From IMG/VR virus record IMGVR_UViG_3300032820_000012, positions 1-48,304 of that record: 48,304 nt of DNA. The stretch is one strand, 5' to 3'. This document shows, piece by piece, positions 2,327-44,800 of this stretch. The stretch comes from a virus. The notes under the pieces were generated by a model. It saw nothing but the letters and a program-made list of their open reading frames with translations. It was not told the DNA's origin and did no database searches. Each line of letters opens with the position of its first letter. Position 1 is the first letter of the stretch. Made by a program: the position numbers and the translations under genes.

Positions 2327-3810
2327 TGGCTACTGACAACGAGTTCTTCGACTTCTTGGCATCAGCCGACGACGAGGTAAAGGGTTTCTTTGAGCATCTT
2401 GCGATGCTGCAAGATACCGGGGGTATCGAAGCGGTAATCGAATTTGCGTTGGACCCCTTGGAGACCGGTGAGACTACTGCGGGGATCATCTCAGAGGGCG
2501 CTGCCGAGGCACTGCGGGCACAGGACATCCCCAATATCAACGATGCAGATACGTTTTATTGGCAGTTAGGTGAGACTGAGGTCGCTGGAGGGGTGCTTGG
2601 GGCAGGGCCAGAGGGCGGCAATCAGATAATGGCGCACACCAGCGACGGTGACGACGGTATCGTTGTCGTTCCCCCCGGCGATGGGGGTGGTCAGGGCGAC
2701 GACGGCGGCGGTCAGGGTGGCGGCGACGATAGTGGCAGCGGGGAAGGTGGCGATGGCGATACGGGGCCGGACATTGGATTTGGTGGGCAAGGTCCGGGTG
2801 GTGGCGATGATTTCGATCCCAACCCGGACGCAGGAGCATTCCAACCCGGTGCTTGGTTTACCGACCCGGACCCAGAGGTCGTGTCGGAACCGGGAATCCC
2901 AACGATGTCCGAAACGGATCTCGTCTATGCCCGGAACCTGCTAGAAGCAGAACTACGAATGGCTGGGTTCGATACGAACGCGATCGGCAGGCTGTTGGAG
3001 GACTGGATTATCCCACGGCTAAAAGGCACCTATGTTGACGCCGAGACAGGCACAGTGATGTTGCCACCGGATGAAGCAGCCGACTTGTTGCCTGAACTAT
3101 ACGAACAGCATGAGTTCAAGGTCAGGTTCCCCGGCTACCACCCACGGATAGACGGTGGGTACAACGCTATCGACATCCAAGATTATCTTTCTTATGAAGA
3201 CCGTTTCCATGAACTGATGACGCAGTACGGTCTTGATTCGATCATCGCAGAAGGTGGCCGAAGCACAAAAGAATACATCGGTAACCTCATCAGTGGGAAC
3301 GTCTCGTTGCAGCAGTTGGACACCCGGATCACAAGAGGGGTGGCAGCAGTTCTGGACGCCCCCGAAGAGGTGCTGCAACAGTTCGAACAGTGGTATGGGT
3401 CAGAGGGGGAGAACGCCCTGTTGGCCTCCTACCTAGATCCCACAGCGGAACTCACGGATCTTGCGACAAAGGCTGGGGCTGCTATGGCCGGTGGCTTGGC
3501 AAAAAGATCTCTTGACGAGCAGGGTATTTCTAAGCAGATGGCGGAAGATATCGCTGATCTTGACTACTCCAATCAGCAACTCCAAGAGGCATACACCGCA
3601 TTGGCGGGGCAGGCTTCACTGTTTGCAGAACGTGCAGGCGAAGAGGACTTTAAGATTACAGATGAAGGTGTATCAGCCGCACTTCAATTAGATAGCGATG
3701 TCATGGACAGAGTTAATCGTCGTAGACGAGAGCGTGCGGCTGACTTCGCAGGCGGTGGCGGTGCTATGGTATCGGGTACGACTACAGGATTCGGATCGGC
3801 TAATGCCTAA
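2326..3810 (+). CDS. Putative virion protein with Gly/Asp low-complexity region, 494 aa
   Basis: The ATG at 2326 overlaps the preceding stop (TAATG) and is preferred to an in-frame GTG at 2311. Residues about 100-180 are a low-complexity stretch made almost only of Gly, Asp, Gln and Ser (for example GDDGGGQGGGDDSGSGEG). It is followed by a helical domain of about 300 residues. The C-terminus is basic (RRRRERAADFAGGGG). I recognise no family. The gene belongs to the late operon between the lysozyme-like protein and the holin, and is probably a virion protein. Confidence 0.6.
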   Translation: MATDNEFFDFLASADDEVKGFFEHLAMLQDTGGIEAVIEFALDPLETGETTAGIISEGAAEALRAQDIPNINDADTFYWQLGETEVAGGVLGAGPEGGNQIMAHTSDGDDGIVVVPPGDGGGQGDDGGGQGGGDDSGSGEGGDGDTGPDIGFGGQGPGGGDDFDPNPDAGAFQPGAWFTDPDPEVVSEPGIPTMSETDLVYARNLLEAELRMAGFDTNAIGRLLEDWIIPRLKGTYVDAETGTVMLPPDEAADLLPELYEQHEFKVRFPGYHPRIDGGYNAIDIQDYLSYEDRFHELMTQYGLDSIIAEGGRSTKEYIGNLISGNVSLQQLDTRITRGVAAVLDAPEEVLQQFEQWYGSEGENALLASYLDPTAELTDLATKAGAAMAGGLAKRSLDEQGISKQMAEDIADLDYSNQQLQEAYTALAGQASLFAERAGEEDFKITDEGVSAALQLDSDVMDRVNRRRRERAADFAGGGGAMVSGTTTGFGSANA

Positions 3811-3907: not shown

Positions 3908-4088
3908 GGATGTTCTTGAGCGGGTAGCCGCTACCTTTATTCAGGCGTTCCTCGGTATCTTTGTTGTTGGTGGGGATATCGGTAATGCTAAGGCGGCTGC
4001 GTTGGCTGGTGCTACGGCTGCGTTGAGTCTTGTCAAGGGTGTTGTTGCCTCTAGGTTTGGTGACGGATCGGCGTCGGCAGCGTCGTAA
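3897..4088 (+). CDS. Holin, r1t-like
   Basis: 63 residues from a GTG start that overlaps the preceding stop. It has two hydrophobic helices (about residues 11-27 and 33-50) joined by a short turn with charged residues, and the ERxxxTFxQAFL-type N-terminus and Ala-rich second helix typical of the r1t-like holins of actinophages and lactococcal phages. It would form lesions in the inner membrane that release endolysin. It sits directly before two further membrane proteins, while the M15 endolysin is about 7 kb downstream. Identification rests on pattern, length and topology. Confidence 0.65.
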   Translation: MFTKDVLERVAATFIQAFLGIFVVGGDIGNAKAAALAGATAALSLVKGVVASRFGDGSASAAS

Positions 4089-4606
4089 TGTCTGACGATG
4101 TGGTTGACCAACTAAAGAAGGTCCAAGTATCTAAACTAACCTTGGGCCTTGTTGGGTCGATCATTGCTGTCAGTGCTGTAGTTACTTGGAACGCTGCTCA
4201 GGTCGCCAGCCGTATAGATCAGTTGGAGCATTCGGTAGCAGAGATTGAGGTCGTTGATACCAGCAATCTTGTTACCAGCGCCCAGTTGTTAGCAGCCATT
4301 CAGGCTATTCCCGAAGTGGATCTGTCTGGTCTAGCCACTACTGACATGGTGGAATCTTTGGTGGCGATAGAGCAGGCCGCTTATGAGGATGTATCTGACG
4401 ACCTTGAAGACCTACAGGATTCAGTCGCCGCCCTGTTGCTTGATGCTGACAGGGAGCCTGAGTGGGTTGACGAGATCGAAGAGATCCAGCAGCGCCTAGA
4501 GGAAATGGGTTGGGAACTAGGTGACTTGTGGTGGCGTACTGATATGAACGAGCAGGCTTGCCGCACCCGGAAGTGGTGCGATGACTGGTACGACGAGAAC
4601 TGGTGA
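4088..4606 (+). CDS. Single-pass membrane protein with coiled coil, 172 aa
   Basis: It starts with ATG overlapping the holin stop (TAATG). One transmembrane helix lies at about residues 18-37 (LGLVGSIIAVSAVVTW), followed by a long acidic, heptad-like helix and a Trp/Cys-rich C-terminus. Next to the holin it may be a lysis accessory or membrane-anchored virion protein. A spanin-like role is possible but not shown, since a Gram-positive-type host would not need one. No family was recognised. Confidence 0.6.
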   Translation: MSDDVVDQLKKVQVSKLTLGLVGSIIAVSAVVTWNAAQVASRIDQLEHSVAEIEVVDTSNLVTSAQLLAAIQAIPEVDLSGLATTDMVESLVAIEQAAYEDVSDDLEDLQDSVAALLLDADREPEWVDEIEEIQQRLEEMGWELGDLWWRTDMNEQACRTRKWCDDWYDENW

Positions 4607-5853: not shown

Positions 5854-7035
5854 GTGACCATCGTAGGTTACTCAGGCAAAGTCACCAGTTATGACTTAGC
5901 CGTCGGCGTCAAGATCAACATGGACGAACTCATTTATATGATTTCGCCCATTGATTCGCCATTTATCAACGGTATCGGGACTGATGGGCGACAGTTGCTT
6001 GCCAGTTCTGGTGTCGATCAGACAGAATTCAAATGGATGGACGAGGAACTTTTGCTTCCCCGTGCACAGATATCAGCAACGACGGGCGCTGGAGGGGCAG
6101 GTACTACAGAAATCACTGTCTCCACTAGCGATGTCTTTAAGTTCCAGATTGGCGATCTTCTGAACAATGGTGCAGAAGATGAGACTGTCAACGGAGCGAT
6201 TAAGATTGTTACCGATATAACGACCGGTACGGGAGTTATAGAGGTACAAGACTGGATCAATGCTTCAGTCTGGCCTGTTCCAACAGTAGACGACACGATT
6301 ATTTGTGTCGGTACTGCGCTGGTTGAGGGTTCCGATCCGGGTACCGCCCGGTCGGCTGACCGGACGATCCGCTCAAACTACACTCAGATTTTCGGGCCGA
6401 CACCCGTTAACATGACTCGTACTGAGCAGCAGATCACCCGGTATGGCGTGAGCGACGAGTTTGCCAAGCAGTTGTATGGCCGCTCAGTTGAGAACGTCAT
6501 CACCCGTGAGCAGGCTTACCTTTACGGTAAGCGACGCGATGATACAGCCAACAAGCGCCGGTCAACTGGTGGCTTGATGGATTTCATCACGACCAACACC
6601 GACGCCAGCAGCACAACGCTGACTACTACTGCGTTGGAGTCGTTGATGCAGAAGTGCTACAACGCAGGCGGTATTCCCGATCTTTTGATTGCGAATCCTG
6701 CTTCGTTTGCTACTCTCAACGACACCACTAACACCGACACGGTGCGTCACGTTATCGATGACCCCCGCCGTGGCCGGGTACCTGTCATGTCTGTGTTCAC
6801 CGAATTTGGTGAGACACAGTGTGTCAGGAACCGCTGGATGCACTCCGAAAGTGCGTTTGTTGTCCAGAAGGATGGTGTTAGCCGCCGGGTTATGCAGCCT
6901 CTCGTAGTTGAGCCGCTTGCAAAGACCGGTGATAGTGACAAGGTGCAGATCGTGTGTGAGGAAGGCCTTCAGGTGAAGGGCGAACAGCACATGGCGAGGT
7001 TCACCAACCTCCGTGGTTACACAGATACTCCGTAA
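5854..7035 (+). CDS. Major capsid protein, HK97 fold, SU10/DUF5309-like
   Basis: 393 residues from a GTG start with AGGAG ten bases upstream. The N-terminus (TSYDLAVGV, then ISPIDSPFINGIG) and middle (SNYTQIFGPTPVNMTRTEQQI, shown here only in part as TQIFGPTPVNMTRT) fit the SU10-like/DUF5309 capsid proteins of many environmental podoviruses and siphoviruses. Following segments (RRSTGGLMDFI, IANPASFATL, MSVFTEFGETQCVRNRWM) match the E-loop and A-domain style of HK97-fold shells. It follows the scaffold-like gene and precedes the connector gene. A tandem repeat and a strong hairpin follow its stop. Confidence 0.8.
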   Translation: MTIVGYSGKVTSYDLAVGVKINMDELIYMISPIDSPFINGIGTDGRQLLASSGVDQTEFKWMDEELLLPRAQISATTGAGGAGTTEITVSTSDVFKFQIGDLLNNGAEDETVNGAIKIVTDITTGTGVIEVQDWINASVWPVPTVDDTIICVGTALVEGSDPGTARSADRTIRSNYTQIFGPTPVNMTRTEQQITRYGVSDEFAKQLYGRSVENVITREQAYLYGKRRDDTANKRRSTGGLMDFITTNTDASSTTLTTTALESLMQKCYNAGGIPDLLIANPASFATLNDTTNTDTVRHVIDDPRRGRVPVMSVFTEFGETQCVRNRWMHSESAFVVQKDGVSRRVMQPLVVEPLAKTGDSDKVQIVCEEGLQVKGEQHMARFTNLRGYTDTP

Positions 7036-28542: not shown

Positions 28543-28851
28543 ATGGCGATCTATGATAAAGGGGATTCGGTTAGGTTGACGGCCACGTTTACCAGTGATG
28601 CCGTTAATACCGATCCAACCGACACTACCGCCGATGTTGTGTTTACTTGGCGACGACCATCTGGGAAGAACACAGCCGGAACTGCTGGTACGGATTCGAC
28701 CCCAAGTCCGACAAGGAGCGCCACAGGGATCTATTACACAGATTTGGTCCTTGACGAAGTAGGTGTGCATACCGTCCAAGTCAAAGGGTTAGAGGGCGTC
28801 GTTGCCGCAGATATTATCGAATTGCAAGTAGCAAAGTCAGTCTTTGCGTAA
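28543..28851 (+). CDS. Small beta-rich structural protein, 102 aa
   Basis: AAGGAG lies seven bases before the ATG. The sequence is Thr-rich and strand-rich (DSVRLTATFTSDAV, DVVFTWRRPSGK, GVHTVQVKGLEG), like a single Ig-like domain. It overlaps the terminase start (TAATG). It is probably a minor fibre or decoration protein. Confidence 0.55.
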   Translation: MAIYDKGDSVRLTATFTSDAVNTDPTDTTADVVFTWRRPSGKNTAGTAGTDSTPSPTRSATGIYYTDLVLDEVGVHTVQVKGLEGVVAADIIELQVAKSVFA

Positions 28852-30545
28852 TGACAGGGAATGCAAGTAAAGCCAAAGGTGAAAGTAATCGTAGACTCTT
28901 TTTAGAGGCGATAGAACACCACGGGAAGATTAACGACTCGTTGGAAATCGTCGGGGTTACACGGTCAGCGTATGAGAAGTGGCGGCAGCGCATCCCTGAG
29001 TTCGCCGCCAAGGTTGATGCGATCAGACTCAGATTTGCTGAAGAGGGTCCGCCTGAAGAGAAGGGTGGATCATTTCAGGACTTTAGGAACGAATACTTCG
29101 GACATATGTCTCCGTGGTTCCATATCGCAGCGATAGACGCATACGAGAAGACCCCTCCCGGCAATATCACCCTGATCCTCTGGCCCCCGGAACACGGCAA
29201 GACAACGCTCGCTGAGGACTATTTCTGTTACAAACTGGCTGTTGACCCACAATTCAGGATCACAGTCGGATCCGAGGGTCAGGATATGGCCCGTAAGATT
29301 CTGGGCCGTATCCGCTCACGGATGGAACCTCACGGACCTTTCCCCGGATATGTAGCGAAATACGGACCTTTTGTCCCCCAGAACCAATCTGGGCGCAAAA
29401 CCGCACAACCTTGGGGTGCCGACTACTTTAGTGTGTTCAAGAAGTCAAGGCACGATGAACGTGACTATTCGATGGTTTCCTTGGGTTGGCGGTCCAAGAT
29501 TGCCGGTACCCGTACCGATCATCTACATATTGACGATATCCAGTCAAGGGTGTCTCTTAACCTGACAGAACAGATGTTCGAGATTTTCCGGCAGGACTGG
29601 CTGACCCGTCCCGGTGAGAATGGACGAACCAGCATTAACGGTACCCGTGTCGGTGAGGACGACTTCTACGAGCGAGTCATGCTGCAAATCGATGAAGACA
29701 TCCTCAAAGTCATTCGCTTCCCTGCAATCGTAAATAACGCTGATGATGAGCCGGAACCGCTGTGGCCGGAAATGTTCACATTGGACTCGTTGGACCGCAT
29801 CCGCCGCAAGGTCGGAGAAGAAGCATGGTCTCGGAACTACATGCAGGAGCCGTCAAGTTCACTCACGGCTACGTTCACCGACGATTCTATTAAGAAATGC
29901 CTCAATCCCCTACGGTCCACCCTTCACGACCCGCCTACGGACTGCACGGTCTACATAGGGTTAGATCCTGCTTTGGGTGGGAACAACTGCGTTATGGCAG
30001 CCACACCGCATGAGGACAAGTTGAAGATCCTGTTCCTGCGGGAAGACATCGGTTTGACCCGCAACGAACAGATTCTTGGCATTGTCGAAGACGCCGTTCT
30101 CCGGTGTCGCAAGAACGGGGCAAGCGTCTCTGATGTAGTTATTGAGGCGATGGTCTTCCAGAAGGGCTTGTCAAGAGACCAGCGCCTTATCGAGATGACC
30201 GACCAGTATGGTTTCAGGGTACGAGAGCATCTAACTGGAATGAATAAGTATGACGAAACCATCGGGATCCCGTCGATGGCGCTGTCATTTATGCGCGGCG
30301 AGATTGAGATTCCGTATGCGGAGGACGCTCCGACGCGCCATCAGGCTGATGAACTGATCCGTCAGTTAAAGTCGTGGCGCCCGCTAGTTCGTGGCACGCA
30401 TCTTCGGCAAGACAGAGTTATGGCGTTGTGGTTCATTTGGATTCTTTGGCGGCAGAGAAGGGCCGCATTCCAAGTGGACACTAGCCAGTTTAACTATAAG
30501 GGGCTACCTTATAGTAAGAGGCGTGTGGGAATCGGGGCGTACTAA
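28851..30545 (+). CDS. terL: Terminase large subunit with fused small-subunit-like HTH
   Basis: 564 residues. The C-terminal nuclease (RNase H-like) has D372 (YIGLDPALGG), E432 (VVIEAMVFQ) and D521 (RQDRVMALWF). The ATPase has Walker A PPEHGKTT (112-119) and a Walker B-like DHLHIDD (223-229). Residues about 10-65 (NDSLEIVGVTRSAYEKWRQR) look like the DNA-binding HTH of small terminases. No separate small-terminase gene is seen nearby, so the two activities may be joined. The enzyme packages DNA into the procapsid through the portal encoded next. Confidence 0.85.
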   Translation: MTGNASKAKGESNRRLFLEAIEHHGKINDSLEIVGVTRSAYEKWRQRIPEFAAKVDAIRLRFAEEGPPEEKGGSFQDFRNEYFGHMSPWFHIAAIDAYEKTPPGNITLILWPPEHGKTTLAEDYFCYKLAVDPQFRITVGSEGQDMARKILGRIRSRMEPHGPFPGYVAKYGPFVPQNQSGRKTAQPWGADYFSVFKKSRHDERDYSMVSLGWRSKIAGTRTDHLHIDDIQSRVSLNLTEQMFEIFRQDWLTRPGENGRTSINGTRVGEDDFYERVMLQIDEDILKVIRFPAIVNNADDEPEPLWPEMFTLDSLDRIRRKVGEEAWSRNYMQEPSSSLTATFTDDSIKKCLNPLRSTLHDPPTDCTVYIGLDPALGGNNCVMAATPHEDKLKILFLREDIGLTRNEQILGIVEDAVLRCRKNGASVSDVVIEAMVFQKGLSRDQRLIEMTDQYGFRVREHLTGMNKYDETIGIPSMALSFMRGEIEIPYAEDAPTRHQADELIRQLKSWRPLVRGTHLRQDRVMALWFIWILWRQRRAAFQVDTSQFNYKGLPYSKRRVGIGAY

Positions 30546-32368
30546 TGGCGTATACATTCGAAGAGATCGTCGGGATTGTCCGTATGCGGCAATCCAGTCA
30601 AAGTGATCTTTTGGACCGTATGAATGAAATCAAGGATCGGTATAACGGTGATTATGTTATACCACTTCCATCGATGGATGACGAGCCAATTCTTCCTCCG
30701 CTTACCCCGGCATTGATTTCAGAAAATATTGATGCTATAGCACAGCGGGCTGCCTCTGTTACCCCTTACATCGGATGTCCTGCTGTCGATCCCGGTAAAG
30801 AGCGAGGCAAACGGTCACGCCAGTATGCCGATATTCGCAGGCGGGCACTTGCCTCAACGTGGTACCAGAATAAATACAAGATCAAGATGAGGCGCGCCTA
30901 TCGGCATCTCGCCGGATATGCCACAACGGCATTGGTTGTTATCCCCGATTTCGATATGGGTATGCCAAGGATCGAAGTTCGGGATCCGCTAGGGGTCTAC
31001 CCGGAACCACAGGCTGCGGAGAACTACGACGTTCCTCGCAACTGCGGAATGCTTTACGGCAAGTCGGGAGACTGGCTGCGGGCGCACTACCCAAAGAGCC
31101 GCCAAGAGAACGGTGGCGTAGTCGCTCCTGACAACAATGCCTGTCAGGAACTCTGGGATTGTGTCGAATGGATCGATGCCGAGGACATCGTTATTGGCAT
31201 CATGGGTCCACGATACGGGGCGCAAGGACAGAAGGTGCCACAGTCAACTTCGCAGGAGTTGTCTCGTTACAAAAACAAGGCCGGAAGGCCGTGTGTCATC
31301 ACGCCCGGAAAGGTGACGTTGGATCGCATCGCATCTTCGGTGTCGAACATCGTCGGCATGGTTGACCTGATGGCGAAACTTATGGCGCTTGAACTGATCG
31401 CCCAAGAAAAGGCGATCTTCCCAGATCGTTACATTATTGGACGGTCTGGACAGGTTCCGATGATTGTCGGAGGAGAATGGAAAGATGGCCGTGAAGGACA
31501 AGTCAACGTACTGCTTGACGCAGAACAAATCGGAGAACTCCGAGGCGCGCCCGACCAGCAAACAAACATCGCCATCGATCGGCTCGAACGCAATGCCCGC
31601 GTATCGACAGGAACGGTCCCGCAAATCGGTGGGGAGTCGTACGGCGCTCTTCGCACTGGTCGGGGGATTGACGCTCTCATGGGCGCTTCTCTTGACCCAC
31701 GGGTACAGGAACTTCAAGAAATCATGGAAGCGCATCTTCCCCATCTGAACGAATGTCTATTCGCTACTTGGCAGGGGTATTGGGGAAATAAGACAATCTC
31801 AACCTTTACCGGCTATACCGGTGATTTCGGACAGGTTGAGTTCACTCCTGATGAACACTTTGAAACCTATGACAACGTGGTGTCGCATTCGATTCCCGGT
31901 GCCGACGTACAGGGAACAACTATCCAGTTGGGACAGTTGCTCCAAATGAAGGGTATTAGTTTGGCTACCTTCAGGGCGCGGCATCCGTTCATTGACGACC
32001 CGGAGGCGGAAGGACGCCGGGTGGATGAAGAGTCATTGGAAGAAGCGGTTATGGCTGGAATCCAACAGCAGGCCGTACAGGGGATGCTCCCGATTATCTA
32101 TATAGCGAAGATAGAGAAATTCCGCAAAAAGGGTCACGACATCTTTGAGTCCATTCAGAAGGCAGACGAGGAAATCAGCAAGGAGCAGGCGGCATTGGCA
32201 CCACCTCCCGAGGAGGGACAGGCGATGGCACCGGAAGAAGCGTTGGGCCTTCAAGGTCCACCGCAGGCAGCGTCACCGGAGCAGCCGTTGCCTCCCGAAG
32301 CACAGCAGATGTCTCCTGAAACGGCTGTTGCCCAGATGCAGCAGGCGCTCGCAGCGGGTGGTCCGTAA
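30545..32368 (+). CDS. Portal protein, 607 aa
   Basis: It directly follows the terminase (TAATG overlap). The N-terminal half has RYNGDYVIPLPSMDDE and the ISENIDAIAQRAAS helix common to portals, then an alpha/beta stem region. A long helical C-terminus ends in Pro/Gln-rich low complexity (about 560-607), as seen in portals of short-tailed phages. Twelve copies would form the DNA entry vertex. Assignment rests on position, size and the overall pattern. Confidence 0.75.
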   Translation: MAYTFEEIVGIVRMRQSSQSDLLDRMNEIKDRYNGDYVIPLPSMDDEPILPPLTPALISENIDAIAQRAASVTPYIGCPAVDPGKERGKRSRQYADIRRRALASTWYQNKYKIKMRRAYRHLAGYATTALVVIPDFDMGMPRIEVRDPLGVYPEPQAAENYDVPRNCGMLYGKSGDWLRAHYPKSRQENGGVVAPDNNACQELWDCVEWIDAEDIVIGIMGPRYGAQGQKVPQSTSQELSRYKNKAGRPCVITPGKVTLDRIASSVSNIVGMVDLMAKLMALELIAQEKAIFPDRYIIGRSGQVPMIVGGEWKDGREGQVNVLLDAEQIGELRGAPDQQTNIAIDRLERNARVSTGTVPQIGGESYGALRTGRGIDALMGASLDPRVQELQEIMEAHLPHLNECLFATWQGYWGNKTISTFTGYTGDFGQVEFTPDEHFETYDNVVSHSIPGADVQGTTIQLGQLLQMKGISLATFRARHPFIDDPEAEGRRVDEESLEEAVMAGIQQQAVQGMLPIIYIAKIEKFRKKGHDIFESIQKADEEISKEQAALAPPPEEGQAMAPEEALGLQGPPQAASPEQPLPPEAQQMSPETAVAQMQQALAAGGP

Positions 32369-35800: not shown

Positions 35801-38800
35801 CAAAGGGATGGCACTTGTCCATAGCACCCTGTACCACCCTGCCCGCATGGCAGCAAAGTTCACACGCAGCGTCCCCAGAAATCGATTTATTGATGTAACT
35901 AATTCGAGGACTGCTATCCAAGAGTTCACTGCGCTGGCAGAACTCGGCTTCATGGCTGAAATGCCACGGCCAGTAATCGAAGGGTACATCTCGGCCTTTG
36001 TCCACGGTACCGAAGGGGTCCGTTGGGATATCCAGTCACGGTTCCTCATGGACTTCATGGGTCGTACCGGTGCGCTGGTATATGGCGGTCAAAACATCCA
36101 GCGTTGGTTCAACAGGTTTATTCGACAGGGTTCCACGGCTTACTCCAATGTCGCCAACGACGCGATCATCGGCGGGATGCCCCTCTACCGGCGTGCCATA
36201 TTCCCCGGCGAAGCGCACGGCGCTCAGATGTCCAAACTGAACATTCTTCCCAGTTACAGGGAACTTGGAGAAGCCTCCTCGTACATGAACATGATGCGAA
36301 TGATAGGGCACTCAGCATTTGGCCCTGCCATGTTGGATAAGTTTTTCGCCCGGTTCTGGCGGCCAGCGGTCCTGATGCGTATAGGCGTCGGCCTTCGTAA
36401 CGGTGTTGATGAAACGCTGCTCATGGTTCTTCGAGAGGGTCCGAGGTCGTTTGCGAATGCGAAACTAGCCAAGACTGCTATCGGTACACAGAAGCATTTT
36501 GACCACCTTGGCCGAGCGATTCCAGTTCTGACAACTGATCAGACCCGTAGGAGCGTCATTGTCAGTCCGATTGCTCGCACATGGCGGGCTGTCGGTGACG
36601 TTCTAGGTATTGGCGATCCAGCCATGACTCGTAAGGCAGTGCAGGTTGCGAAAGAGAAGCATCTCTACAACTGGGATGCGCTGGGGGCGGCAAGGCAGGA
36701 AAAAGAGGTTATCGCTGCAAGGAATCTTCTTACTAAAGATTCAGAAACTATGGGGATCAGGGTAGCGGCGCATAAGGGGTGGAAGCCCATTATGCAGATG
36801 CTTGAAGCATCAGCGAGAATAACGGGACGGGTGTTTCATCAGTCAGCGAGACTTCCTTTCGTGCCGACGAAACAGCAGGCAGCCCAATGGGCATTGGCAA
36901 GGCAGCATGATGGAGAGCGGTTCATATACGCCAAGATGAAGCAGATGACGAATCCGGTGATTCTTGATTCGGCAAACGATCTGGTCTTTTCTCCGTTCCG
37001 TTCCTACTTCGGTGGAATGAGTGGGACTTCACTAGATGAAGTATTGAAACTTCAGGGTCAGCGTTCTGACGCAGCAGGGAACGCTATTCCTTATATCGAA
37101 CTGGACTATGCCAACAGCCAGATGACTTATGTGAAGATGGACGCAGGGGGTAGCACACAATTCGGTCTGTTGGAGGCAGCGAGTCAGCGTCTCTACACCA
37201 TGCAGACTTCTCCTGAAGCGGTTGCTGCTGCGCGGGCAGGAGCGCATCACGTTGATGAGGTGTTGGAAGGATTCTTCAGAAGGAATCTGACTGACGACAT
37301 GATCGGGGTGATGAGGGAGAGGGTCGGTATAGCAGGTACAGGGAGGACGACAGTACGCAACTATGAGATTTCTATCCCGGCGGGTACGGCACCGGAAGGC
37401 GAACTGACGGCTGTTCGTACCTTCAAGATGAACTATAGGTATGAGAAGTCTCAGGCTGTCAAGGCTCTGGGGAAATCAGAAAAGGTCACAGGCGATAACA
37501 CTTTCGATGCGATTGTTGCTGGGCAGCGAATGGCTACTACACGCACAGCAGCACAGTTGGGGCCGGTGAAGAAGGGTGACACTGTTCTCTTCATAAGAGA
37601 TTCCGACGGCGCGCAGGTCTATGTCAAGATAACTGATCGGTATAAGCCAAACCAGAAGATCAGCCGAGAGGCATGGGCGGAACTAGAGGGCTACGGTTCA
37701 CCGATTCCAGATGCGGAATGGGCGAAGTACGGCAACATGGAACAGATTACTTTCAAGACGATCTCTCATCCGTTCAGAGGTGCCGAAGTGCCAAGGCATT
37801 TGGAACCGGGGGTCAGCCCATTTGCCGGGTCGGTGACATTCACAGATAACGCGGTGTCTGAGTTCGCTGGACAAGCAGACTTCCTTGCGACGGGAGCCTC
37901 TTTCTCGGATGTCTCGGGTGCTGTTCGAGCGCAGGGCGGCAACATCATCAGCAAGGGGGTCACTAGCGAACTCCTTGATGGGTCAACGGCGGCGGCTAGG
38001 ACGGCTTACGAACTCATTGACGACATCGATCCGCTGATGCGTAGTTACCTGCGGGCCTATTGGGAGAACGCACCGAAGTTCCAGCCGGGAGAGGCGTGGC
38101 ACGGCTTTCCGCTGCACGGTTATACCGACCCATTGGATATCGCAGATGCACTTGTCGGAATGGGCCGGACTGAAGCAGAAAGAAATTTCTTATCGTCCAT
38201 ACTCCGTCCCACATTGGGGGCAGCCGACCATGAGGCTTCTAAAGCGTTGGCATGGTTATCTCATCGTGACCTGAAGATGGGTGACCTGTTAAGCGATGTG
38301 GCTAAGTCTGAAGAGGCACAGAGGGCAGCGTGGATGTCGGAGGGAATGACCATACTGGGACAGGATCGTAATAACTCTATGGTGCGGTCTACCGGCATTG
38401 ACCCAGTGATCCAGCGCACGATGACTATGCCTAATGAGTATGAGATTGGGTTCTTCTTCCCGCAGGTTCCCGGTGATGTAGGTGTTGCTCTTGCTTATAT
38501 GTTCAAGCACCCGGAAACAATGATCGCTAACGAAATGCGACAGATGTTGGGGACCATGCTTTCCCGTGAGTTAGGGAGCCGTGACTCAGCACGGGTGGTT
38601 CTCAATACGTTGGACCCGATGATGAGTCCGCACGGGAGCATGACTCCTGATGCGTGGCTGGGGTTCTACATGGCTGACGCAGACCGAATCATCTCATCAG
38701 CGATCGCATCACAGCCCGCCTCACCGGCAGCACTCGCCAGCACCCTTGATGAGATGCTAGGAGTTAAAGAACTTACAGATGTTGCAGGGATGCGTATCCC

Positions 38801-41800
38801 GCTTCTCACTGGGGCACATAACCCTGAGAAAACTGAAAAGGTTCTACATGCGCTGAGGGATTGGCGCACATGGCTGCATGAGGGAGAGATCCCAGCCCCG
38901 CAGGTCGCTGGGGCTTTGATGGACGACGCTACTGAAAGCCTAACCGGAGGCTGGGGTGTTGTCCGACGCCTCCTGACTCACGACGAATACAAAGCAACTC
39001 CCGGTTACGGCAGGTACTACGGCACAACCGGTGGGCACAAGTTCGCTCGCCCCTCCGGTGCTGGCCCCGCAGAGGCGCAGCCGGTAACAGTCACAATCAT
39101 TGGCGATACATGGGGCAACTCGAAGAGTGTTCCTAGCGGTTGGACTGAAGAGTTGGCGGACGGTGTACCAACAGGAAACTGGACTGTTGCCGGGGTAGGG
39201 GATACCGAACGGATGGCGGCTGTTGCGGCGCGGGAATGGGTGGAAGAAGAAGTAACACATCTTTCGAATTCGATGCTGTCGTTGCCGACAGGATCACGGG
39301 TCAGGTACCACGCACCTAGTAGGGAAGCCCGAGATGCGGGTTACGACCAGTTCGGAAACTTGGTAAATAAGGTACTTACGACGATTAACGATCATGCGGG
39401 GCAGTCAACGATTGGTCAGTTGGAACGCGCTATCTGGGAGGTCGTGGGTGATCTGCCACCGGGTGCGGGGATTCCTGATGGAGCATGGGTAGGAGGCCCA
39501 AAGTTGTTCCACGGTTCCGAACAGGAACTCAGCGCCTTTGTTCGCAAGGATCCCATAGGCGCAAAGTCATTGGGCGGGCGTTCCGCTATGGGAGAGGCGT
39601 TGTATACGACGCCTGATAAGGAGTTTGCTGCGGGGTATGGGGTTGTCCATGAAGTGCAGTTCATCGGGAAGACACCTACGGGTACGCCCCGTTTGCTGAA
39701 CTATGGCGCTACGGGAATACACGATGACGCCCGGAAGGCCGTTCTGGACACGTTAGAGCATTTCGGTGATCTGCTGAAGGCACACGCTGGCACAAGGCTG
39801 TGGACCGATGCTGAACTGGCCCCGCTGATGGAGAAGTTGTTTAATCCGCGTACGACCTTTGCCGATGTCCACGGGTTTGCCGATGCGGCAGTTATAGGCG
39901 GATCCGAGAGTACCTTGCGAGGGTTTATGAAAATGGTGGCGGAGAGAAACACCGTAGAGGGGATGCCCTTCCACGTTTCTACCCATACTCCGGCATCAGT
40001 TAGAAACCAAGTAAACGAAATGGTGTCTCTAGCGTTGGACAGACTGCGAAAAAATCTCCACGATGCTGGTTACCACGGATATGTGGCACCGAAGGGTGGT
40101 GGGTTCCACCAAGCGCAGATGGCGCCAGAGGCCCACGGGGTAGCAGCGGAACAGTTCGGAGACGCAATCGCTTGGTTTGCTCCTGAGAAGGATCTTAGGA
40201 TAATCAAGGGAGTAGAGAGAGATTTCATCGGTACTGTCGGAGGCGAGAAAGGCACGAACGGCATTCGGCGTATCTTCACTGAACATGGATCCGACGAGAT
40301 GGTTCCTACTATCGAACTCATCGGAGAGCCGTTCGGTGCCGTAACAGAAGCATTCCCCAAGGCAGTACGTTACGACGCTGCTGCTGCTGGCAAGTCAGAG
40401 GCGGCGGCACTCCACACAGATGTCAACGTACCAAGAGAACCCCAGTATCTAGGCGAAACGATGGGGAGGGCACGACCGACTGAGGCGAGCGGCGGCAGGG
40501 CGCGGCCTCGCACGGGTGAAGAACGTGCAGCGGGAGAAGAGATATTGACTCCTGAGCAGGCTGGCGGGGTTGGTTGGGGTGTCACAAGGAAGAAGGGGGC
40601 GCGTCGCAATCCTAAGGAATGGCTGTGGGGAGGTAACAAACCTAAGCAGGACTTCCAAGAGGTAAATGCGATCGACCCGGCGGCTCTCTGGGAGTACCGG
40701 GATGCGCTGCTCAGGCAGATGATAGAGCGGGGCGAGGTCGATACTATTTGGCCGTTCTTCCGTGACGGCCCTTCACCGGGGAGTGTTACAGAAGGGCTGT
40801 CACAGGTTGACGGTATAATCGCCGGGTCTGGTACCCATGCGCCTCGTAACCCTGTCGAAATTGTTTCGAACCTGACTCCCAAACTGCTTCGAGACAACCC
40901 TGACAAGATATTCCTATACGGCGACAACCTTGAAGGTTGGGGTAAGGCCGGTCAGGCAGCCATCCGAGATGAACCGAACGCTATTGGTATCCCAACAAAG
41001 AAGTACCCCGGTATGCAAGAGGGCCACTTCTTTAGGGACAGTGAATATGCACAGAATGTGCGACATATCGATGAGGCGTTCGATCAGATCCCAGAAGGTA
41101 CAACAGTTGTAATCCCGAAAGCCGGTTTGGGAACTGGTCGGGCAAGGATGCAGCAGACAGCACCTAAAACCTTCGATTACCTACAGATGCGTATCAGTGA
41201 GATGCAGGGCATCCCCTCCCCCACGCCGATCATCGGTAAGGGAGGAGTCCAAACTCACGGGAAGCCGCCGGGTGCGAGAAGGGCAGCGGGGGAACCGGGG
41301 GGCAGGATCCCCGGTTGGCTTCAGCAGACACGCGCCGTTGCTGGAGAGGGAAGTGTCCCGATCTCATGGGAAGCCAGAGTCGGGAACCCTTCAGCGGTCG
41401 CACGCCATGTGAAAGCCCGAGTGTACGAACCTGCTAGTCAGGCTCCACGAACGATGTGGACATGGGATACCACGATGCAGCGGCCTGTCACGCCTAGAGA
41501 CATGGGCGGGTTCGATGTTACTGGTGGGCCACTGGGCGAACATATAGGGGTCAGCCCGTACAGCCTCCCAGAAGAGATGTTGGAACAAGCCGCGCATCCT
41601 TCCACTATCAAAAAGAATGTTCTCTGGCAGGACAAGCAGGGCGACATGATGTGGCTGCGGGAAGGACAGGAAGAAACAATTCCGTGGTTCAATCCGGGTG
41701 AAGTCTCTGGCAGCATGCCTACCGGGCCAACAGTGGTCCACGGTGATCAGGGGAAGAACATAGTTCTTTCCAACTGGGGTGAGCATCCCATGACCTTCCG

Positions 41801-44800
41801 GGGTAAGCGGTTCAATACTGCTGAGGGTGCTTTCCAAGCCCATAAGGCTGGCGAGTATTACGCCGGTTTCGAACATCTGTCTGGGAAGGAGGCCCGTGTC
41901 GCTGCCCGTCATGGAGGGGCAGCAGGTAAGGGGGCGGAACCCGGCACCTATCAGGGAGTCCAGAAGATCATCTCTGGTGGTCAGACCGGCGGGGATGAGG
42001 CTGGGCTGTTCGCTGCGGAAGAACTTGGGATCGCAACCGGCGGTCATATGCCTAAGGGCTACAGAGTAGAGGGTGGAACCAACGAGGCGTTGGCGCAACG
42101 CTTCGGGTTGGTGGAACATGAAAGCCCCCAATGGGTTCCTCGCACCGCTGCGAACACTCAGAACTCAGATGGCACGATCTGGTTTGGAAATGAGAGTCCG
42201 GGCAAGGGTGCTACCAGACGGGAAGCACGGAACGCCGGTAAGCCTTTCATAGACAACCCGACCAAGGAACGGTTCATTGAATGGCTAGAAGAAAACAATA
42301 TCCAAGTTCTGAATGTTGCTGGCAATAGGGCGTCTTCGAACCCGGAACTCTATGAAGCGGTTAAGACATTCCTTACGGACTCACTATCTGAAACACCTGT
42401 GGTGTCTGCTGGGAAACCGATCCCTACGCTCGAAACGGTAATAGCAGGCGAACGCGCAGATGTGACCCTGATGCGGGAAATCCTAGACGCCAAGTACGAC
42501 CAGATCCCTGCCTTCAGAACTGCCTTGCTTGAATCAGGGGAAATCACCCATCCCAGTGTAGATGCGTTCTGGGCAGAGACAATGCCCCGGCTGCTCACCG
42601 ATCTACGAGCAAAGAAAATGATGGAACAGGGCGAGTGGGTTTCAATGGGTGAACAGTGGCTTGGCCCGTACGATGTGGTCAACCAGATCGAACACGCAGC
42701 CGCTACTGGGGTGGATGAACTAAACAACTTGGTTTCCAACTTTTCGCGTGTTGGTAAATCGACTATGGCCCAAAAGGGCGAGATGCACCATCAGATCAAT
42801 ATGGAACTTGCCGATTCGGTAGATGGGATTGTGAGTTCCGGGCGTGTCACTAGGTGGGGCAACTCTTCCCTGCTGCCCCCTCAGATACTTGCTCGGGTTC
42901 CTATCACAGCAAAACCAACCGCAGGCGAGCGGACACTTAGCGTAGCCCGCAACTTCTTCGACGGCGCTGTCAACCCCATGATCCGTGCTATTTCACGCGA
43001 ACCTATGTTCGACTTCTATTTCGCTGAAGCCCTGCCAATGACAAGGGCAGTCCGCAACTATTACCAGCACGCACCTGAGTCCTTCAGGGCGTTGGAACGA
43101 GTCGCTAAAACTTCGAATGAGAAGATACCAGCCGAGGTTTATGCCCATCGAAGGCTGAACCCTGCCTACGTTGGGCATGGTCCTGAGCAGACCCGCTTGA
43201 CAATCACCCGCAGGATAGACGAGAACGGGGTTGAACAGGTCTATATCCCTGAACTAGAGGAGTTCATTGAGTTTGGAATACCGTGGGCACCCTACGCTCT
43301 ACCCCCAGAAGGGGCACCTGCGTTAATCGGTTCTGTTGAACATCTCAACAGCGGCCTGACTAGGTACAAGCGACTAGCGGAACTGTTGGGTGATTACCAG
43401 CAGGGGATCCGTCCACGGCATGAGATCGTAGAGCAGATATTCCGTGTCGATGATGCTGTGCGCCCGAAGATCGGTGCGCTAACTGAAGATCAGGCTCTCG
43501 GTTTCTTGGTTGATGCCGGTCGTTTGGGAGACGAGGACTTCTTCCGGGTGCTGATCACTGAAGGACCGCCCCCCAACCTACGCCCGGTGGCTAGTGGTAC
43601 TTGGTTCGATACGTTCCCAGAACACCGCGAGTTCTTTGTCAATATGTATATGAAGAACAAGGAGAGGATGCTTAAAGCCAGTGACGAAGGCAGGCAGGTA
43701 ATCGATGAATATGCTTTGTTCACCCGGCAGGTAGTGGAATACGTCAACTTGAAGAGCCTGCAAGAACAGGCGCATGTCAATATCGCATCGGAACGAGCGT
43801 TGTGGCAAACGTCACTCTTCGTTGATGACCACTCCCTACGGTCACAATGGCAGGAATCAGTCGGAACGATGGTCCCCTTCTGGTTTGCCGAAGAGCAGTT
43901 CCTCCGCAGATGGCTACGGACATTGGAGGTTCGCCCGGATGCGCTACGGAACCTCTCTGCTGCGTTGTTCGCATCGGAACGATCAGGTCTGACATACGAA
44001 GACGACATGGGAACCATGAGGGTATTTGTGCCGGGTAGTTCCTTCTTCCCCTACATGATGGATAACTTCACTCAGTTCCCCTTCCTTCAGAACCTAATGG
44101 GAGAGGAGGGGATCGGATTCATCGGTGGCGATATGACAAGCGTTACCAAACTGCTGCTCCCCGGCTACGGCGAAACCACCGGGAACCTTCAGTACGGTCC
44201 TATGGCTGGCATCCCGCTGCTGGGTCTGTCCACGCTGGATCCGACGCTACGAGGGCAGGGCATACTCGGGTTCCACGATAATATCGTCGGTCGGTACGGG
44301 TACGACTCTGAAGCGTCTGAGTTGATATGGCAGACGATTGTCCCACCACCGATAGCGAAACTCCTCGCTGTTGTAGGGATAGAAGTCGGTGATGTCGGCG
44401 GGACACACGCTAAGTCAATGATGTCTGCGATTGAAGCAGCGGCAGTCAATGGCTGGCTACCCAGCGAACAGGAGATGCGAGAGTTTCCGAATCAGGAGTT
44501 GGAGACCCAGAAGGTCTACGACGCTCTCAACCATGTCGCCAAACAACTCATGCTTATTCAGAATCTTTCTTGGTGGGGTGGGCTGGCTACGGGAACGCCC
44601 CGGTCCTTTGTTGACGATCCCAACTGGGAATGGAACCAGAAGTTTCAGCAGTTGCGGGATACGGGGATCCCCTACGAGCAGGCTTTCCGCGAGATGCTGG
44701 AAGAATACCGGACTGAGTTCTGGGATGAGTACGTCGGAGAACACTTTGGAACTCCCGACTGGGCACAGAACTGGGAAGAAGCGGACGCTACGACACAGCG

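Follow-up and report, generated by a model that had tools for sequence, protein, structure and literature searches.

A phage polyprotein in which a cpYpsA-type SLOG domain interrupts a NADAR domain

The window analysed here is the whole of IMG/VR record IMGVR_UViG_3300032820_000012, a linear phage contig 48304 bases long. The genes for the terminase large subunit and the portal protein, a small open reading frame (ORF) and the gene for a 4268-amino-acid polyprotein follow one another in a row, and a major head protein is encoded at 5854-7035 of the same contig. Within the polyprotein, one domain of the NADAR/YbiA family (approximately residues 2965-3263) is, almost certainly, split in two by a complete cpYpsA-type SLOG domain (Table 1). 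The motifs LSNWGEH (starting at residue 2978) and EARVAARHG (3019) lie in the first NADAR half, SGGQTGGD (3047) in the insert, and LMREILDAKY (3212), VDAFWAE (3242) and LLTDLRAKK (3253) in the second half. The motifs named in the original prediction, which was made from the sequence alone, and its residues E2997, D3243 and W3246 were all found where it had put them, in the polyprotein ORF. That prediction had bounded the halves at 2966-3034 and 3198-3263; both halves stood and their limits were refined to those in Table 1, with a linker on each side of the insert. In alignment, the termini of standalone cpYpsA proteins coincide with the borders of the insert.

Table 1. Features of the nested module, the polyprotein and the neighbouring genes in the window
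Feature	Position	Strand	Evidence
NADAR first half, ~residues 2965-3025, with E2997, Q3001, K3004, R3021, R3025	41727..41909	+	unsplit-NADAR profile; tblastn
Linker 1, residues 3026-3043	41910..41963	+	between profile matches; pLDDT <50 at start
Inserted cpYpsA-type SLOG domain, ~residues 3044-3186	41964..42392	+	PF12694; 3imk; standalone cpYpsA termini
Linker 2, residues 3187-3202	42393..42440	+	pLDDT ~46; dN/dS 0.71 over 3187-3208
NADAR second half, ~residues 3203-3263, with H3239, D3243, W3246, R3258	42441..42623	+	unsplit-NADAR profile; BLAST
Multidomain polyprotein with nested module, 4268 amino acids	32835..45641	+	ORF list; collinear ortholog L001/L002, 82% identical
DUF7831 domain, N-terminal of the nested module in the polyprotein	40869..41186	+	PF25176, E 2.6e-34
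ASCH-like domain in the polyprotein	37491..37691	+	weak PF04266 match, E 0.01, below cut-off
Terminase large subunit	28851..30545	+	phrog_38, E 6e-50
Portal protein	30545..32368	+	phrog_104, E 2e-9

The SLOG domain was recognised over nearly its full length: Pfam cpYpsA (PF12694), the circularly permuted YpsA family within the SLOG superfamily, matched residues 3045-3182 with E 4.6e-31 when the segment was searched alone and 9.7e-30 within a longer segment, at 108 bits against a cut-off of 26.2 and over positions 1-142 of 145. A complete SLOG-like domain had been predicted at this place, between the NADAR halves. Pfam NADAR (PF08719) was found as two collinear stretches with a total E of 6e-4 and 20.5 bits against a cut-off of 35.1. 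The closest unsplit relatives also fall under this cut-off, at 19-24 bits, and the NADAR subfamily is thus a divergent one. Searched alone, the first half matched positions 9-50 of the Pfam profile (E 0.11) and the second half positions 88-135 (E 0.13), while the second half of an ortholog described below matched positions 86-132. Since the values for each half were marginal, a better profile of 129 positions was built solely from unsplit phage NADARs, which had been collected from viral contigs by a SLOG alignment search followed by NADAR alignments. When the whole polyprotein was scanned with it, residues 2965-3025 matched profile positions 3-63 (independent E value, i-E, 4.4e-14) and residues 3205-3260 matched positions 70-127 (i-E 1.8e-12), so that together the halves span positions 3-127 without overlap, missing only a few positions where the insert lies. 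Of 400 shuffled halves, not one matched this profile at E <= 10. A profile of the same subfamily recovered known NADARs, namely E. coli YbiA (E 1.9e-43) and the structure 8bau (2.4e-20). By profile and BLAST searches, both halves were assigned to the same NADARs. No test relied on an artificial joining of the halves: every one was run on the natural sequence, on parts of it, or on a gapped alignment.

Unsplit NADARs of the same subfamily occur in other giant phage ORFs among the loci that we collected (L208, L204, L206, L035, L045, L242, L245 and L246), and in tblastn searches each half of the window NADAR matched the same unsplit NADARs at directly adjoining places. In L208, for example, the first half matched at 4007-4162 (60% identity) and the second at 4220-4369 (68% over 50 amino acids), which are also the highest identities reached by either half. 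The nearest relatives of the first half are L242, L208 and L204, those of the second L208, L242 and L204. Moreover, across 21 relatives the identity to the first half correlates strongly with that to the second (Spearman 0.89), as expected if a single NADAR is the source of both. When 22 unsplit NADARs were aligned with the window and its ortholog, none had residues inside the insert.

Structure prediction led to the same architecture. Joint alignments of unsplit NADARs and SLOG proteins placed NADAR on SLOG, and two separate alignments were therefore used for two AlphaFold2 models, in one of which the window and its ortholog were the only sequences linking both halves. In model 1, built with NADAR rows only, most residues of both halves had a predicted local distance difference test score (pLDDT) above 90, and the SLOG domain was poor, as two SLOG rows would lead one to expect. 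Model 2, built with SLOG rows and with the NADAR halves as separate rows, had a mean pLDDT of 86.7 and a predicted template modelling score (pTM) of 0.63. Both models aligned across the insert with E. coli YbiA (2b3w), model 1 with Z 12.9 (136 residues aligned, model residues 1-314) and model 2 with Z 13.8 (root-mean-square deviation 3.0, 144 aligned, 24% identity, residues 1-315). Residues 64-226 of model 2 aligned with the cpYpsA protein 3imk, which has a Rossmannoid fold, with Z 24.4 (root-mean-square deviation 2.0, 148 aligned, 35% identity), and all other rows of the structure alignments had Z <= 7.2. For helical folds a middling Z can say little; in this case it is backed by identity, by coverage and by the distance to the next row. 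A Foldseek search with model 1 also gave YbiA as the top match (E 0.084, probability 0.99). In both models, then, the halves are predicted to pack as one YbiA fold, and in model 2 the insert as cpYpsA; the original reading of one NADAR fold split by an insertion was borne out by models, profiles and BLAST alike.

The place of the insertion within the NADAR fold can be read against the NADAR of P. nicotianae, in which ADP-ribose is contacted by E43, K50, K75/R79, G78, V81, Y84, D86, W89, R93, E125, D130 and W133 (PMC11543638). Mapped by sequence alignment and spacing, without superposition on that structure, E43 corresponds to E2997, K50 to K3004, K75 to R3021, R79 to R3025, E125 to H3239, D130 to D3243 and W133 to W3246. 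The insert begins directly after the R79 equivalent and ends before the LMREIL helix; by this mapping, it opens loop 80-89, which cradles the adenine side of ADP-ribose. The catalytic Glu E2997 (E43/E88 type) and the phosphate-binding Lys K3004 (K50/K95 type) are invariant in 24 sequences. H3239 stands in the E125 column, where a NADAR carries Glu, Asp or, in phages, His, and phage NADARs with His at this position have been described (PMC11543638). With this His at the catalytic position the domain is of the phage type and not of the DarT-NADAR type mentioned in the original prediction; DarT1-associated NADARs have Asp there (D171) (PMC11543638). A Trp of the W89 type is absent from the window NADAR and equally from the unsplit NADARs of L208, L204, L206, L035, L045, L242 and L245. 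The absence of this Trp, noticed in the original prediction, is real, and a link of its loss to the nesting is not supported: the insertion did not cause the loss, which is a trait of the subfamily.

A second phage, IMGVR_UViG_3300037190_000206, carries the same nesting, with 82% identity along the whole polyprotein. In NG86 comparisons of the window with this ortholog, the ratio of nonsynonymous to synonymous substitution rates (dN/dS) was 0.16 for the first half, 0.27 for the SLOG domain, 0.29 for the second half and 0.25 overall, the loosest stretch being the linker after the SLOG domain (0.71 over 22 codons); the estimates come from a single pair and from short stretches. Judged by these ratios, both NADAR halves and the SLOG insert are under purifying selection.

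The C-terminal region of the window polyprotein (29-31% identity over 1168 amino acids) and further stretches of it recur in two more distant phages, L251/L259 and L253/L258. Each of these has an intact NADAR immediately ahead of the C-terminal region and a SLOG domain several hundred residues upstream. These intact NADARs, together with the many unsplit ones elsewhere, indicate from sequence comparison that the nesting is the derived state. Among these polyproteins and that of the window, the C-terminal ~1000 amino acids and an N-terminal part are common, and the accessory domains between them are reordered. In a tree, the closest neighbour of the window SLOG is that of L045 (support 0.975) and not the SLOG of L258/L259, which disfavours an origin by movement of the polyprotein's own SLOG domain. 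The window NADAR, too, has closer kin in L208/L242 than in L258/L259, and with the L045 grouping this makes an incoming module, or a SLOG domain from another polyprotein, the likelier source. The flanks of the insert show no convincing direct repeats.

Among the best 80 of 237 viral SLOG relatives, as found by the SLOG-led search and with tblastn confirmation using the nested protein, there was no further nested case beyond the ortholog. A scan of 6740 ORFs from the collected loci gave 84 ORFs with NADAR, of which 7 were split: that of the window, and six in overlapping loci that all belong to the ortholog's contig. Searches of phage and plasmid records returned separate SLOG proteins only. 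A DNA scan combining a degenerate NADAR motif with a SLOG motif at fixed spacing gave 20 viral matches, all false, as the motifs did not lie in one open frame. Nested cases elsewhere, including rare ones in bacterial genomes, are possible. The original prediction knew of no described case of such nesting, and we found none in the open-access literature on NADAR with SLOG or on insertions into NADAR or DUF1768, which does describe SLOG, NADAR and Macro fusions; subscription papers, including the original ones on polyvalent proteins and NADAR, were beyond reach.

The nested module shares features with several known systems. E. coli YbiA resembles it in the fold across both halves, in the conserved E..Q..K and D..W residues and in the final Arg, whereas YbiA has no insert and has the W89-type Trp and the E125-type Glu that the window NADAR lacks. 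Phage NADARs of the T4 gp30.3 type (Phage_30_3, PF08010) have His at the catalytic Glu position, as in the window, and PF08010 weakly matches the first half (E 0.0086) and unsplit relatives (E 2e-5). T4 gp30.3 is a separate small protein and is unsplit, unlike the window NADAR, which is split and part of a 4268-amino-acid protein. NADARs hydrolyse guanine-ADP-ribose, and a phage NADAR of the gp30.3 type is active on guanosine-ADP-ribose in vitro (PMC11125620). The cpYpsA SLOG protein 3imk, a 'putative molybdenum carrier', matches the whole window SLOG and is standalone, whereas the latter is an insert. The tandem NADAR-SLOG polyproteins of L035, L204 and L045 hold the same two domains in a giant phage protein, side by side and not nested, as do the phage SLOG/NADAR/Macro fusions described by Iyer et al. 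2022 (PMC9503650). Viral SLOG domains belong mostly to a YpsA-like clade and have been proposed to sense or degrade signals of the cyclic ADP-ribose (cADPR) type, their binding of ADP-ribose-type ligands being a prediction (PMC9503650). Among cyanobacterial proteins of more than 1300 amino acids (L121, L123, L129, L158), NADAR-like repeats alternate with SLOG, and L158 also has a Macro-like segment. Giant NADAR-bearing proteins exist in crAss-like phages too: phage cr126_1 has a 7.2-kb gene annotated DUF1768 (L193, 2848-6447) with NADAR near the N terminus.

By its size, its mixture of DUF7831, NADAR, SLOG and ASCH-like domains, and the place of its gene among terminase, portal and head genes, the polyprotein fits the phage 'polyvalent proteins', which are described as virion-embedded and injected (PMC9503650). 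It would thus probably be packaged into the phage head and delivered by injection. Side-by-side phage SLOG and NADAR modules are thought to counter NAD+/ADP-ribose-based immunity, and a sensing or gating role of the SLOG partner has so far been a matter of guesswork. We hypothesise that the module would be injected with the polyprotein, that its NADAR (YbiA fold, ADP-ribosyl N-glycosidase-type) would remove ADP-ribose from DNA or cleave small ADP-ribose derivatives from host defences, and that the SLOG domain inserted in the ADP-ribose-binding loop would sit at the entrance of the NADAR pocket and bind or process a related nucleotide there, sharing or gating the substrate. That both domains are active, on related ligands and with some coupling, is in our judgement evenly balanced, with catalysis, ligand and gating all putative; we infer that the module aids the phage against ADP-ribose-based defence. 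The combined sensor-hydrolase suggested at the outset, with sensor-gated hydrolysis, is plausible as a hypothesis. In a more specific and rather doubtful version, the SLOG domain in the NADAR ligand loop would form a composite or ligand-gated active site, and the injected enzyme would sense a defence nucleotide with one domain and destroy ADP-ribose adducts or signals with the other.

Several points weigh against this picture. The nesting is present in only two phages, NADAR hydrolase activity in this subfamily is a prediction, and virion packaging is suggested by gene position alone. In P. nicotianae NADAR the opened loop also carries the adenine and ribose contacts V81, Y84, D86 and W89, the last of which is absent from this subfamily, so that ligand or activity may differ. 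At a pTM of only 0.63, moreover, the modelled pose of the SLOG domain relative to NADAR is not reliable.

Somewhat less probable than coupling, and still a serious contender, is that NADAR and SLOG are both active and independent, the nesting being an accident of the shuffling of counter-defence modules, with no gating. Module orders do vary, from NADAR-SLOG in L035 and L204 and DUF7831-NADAR-SLOG in L045 to SLOG-ASCH-DUF7831-NADAR in L253 and SLOG then NADAR in L095, and the linkers, ~18 and ~16 residues long and of low pLDDT, could leave the two domains uncoupled; the insertion point, however, is the ligand-binding loop and no remote one, and two diverged phages have retained it. We consider it improbable that the insertion killed NADAR catalysis and left a dead scaffold or a substrate-binding platform for SLOG: the insertion does break the ADP-ribose-binding loop and there is no W89, but unsplit relatives also lack W89, the key Glu, Lys, Arg, His, Asp and Trp are retained, both halves are under purifying selection and the fold is predicted to be intact. 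An assembly chimera, or a chance resemblance of the flanks to NADAR, could be suspected from the Pfam NADAR score below cut-off, and is already refuted by the independent contig with the same nesting; the profile matches and the shuffled controls speak against it too.

With a SLOG domain placed in the NADAR ligand loop, and unsplit relatives from nature to serve as controls, the question of sensing or gating becomes directly testable. The module is also a clear case of how the shuffling of modules in phage polyproteins can put one enzyme domain into the substrate loop of another; the nested order sets it apart from the side-by-side fusions, and close relatives lack it.

Of the other polyprotein domains, DUF7831 (YGDNL..G.AG motif, function unassigned) adjoins NADAR and SLOG in giant phage proteins of L045, L209, L221 and L253, in the first of these in the tandem order DUF7831-NADAR-SLOG, and is likely a further ADP-ribose-related module. 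The ASCH-like domain recurs in the same module set (also at 3580-3780 of L039 and 2993-3421 of L253) and changes position between related polyproteins; the homolog of the window segment adjoins SLOG in L039 and L253. Finally, 19 viral contigs (L003-L022 except L010) share a near-identical stretch, with a 145-nucleotide match ending at a GGQTG-like motif, the upstream part of which has no open frame and looks like conserved intergenic sequence.

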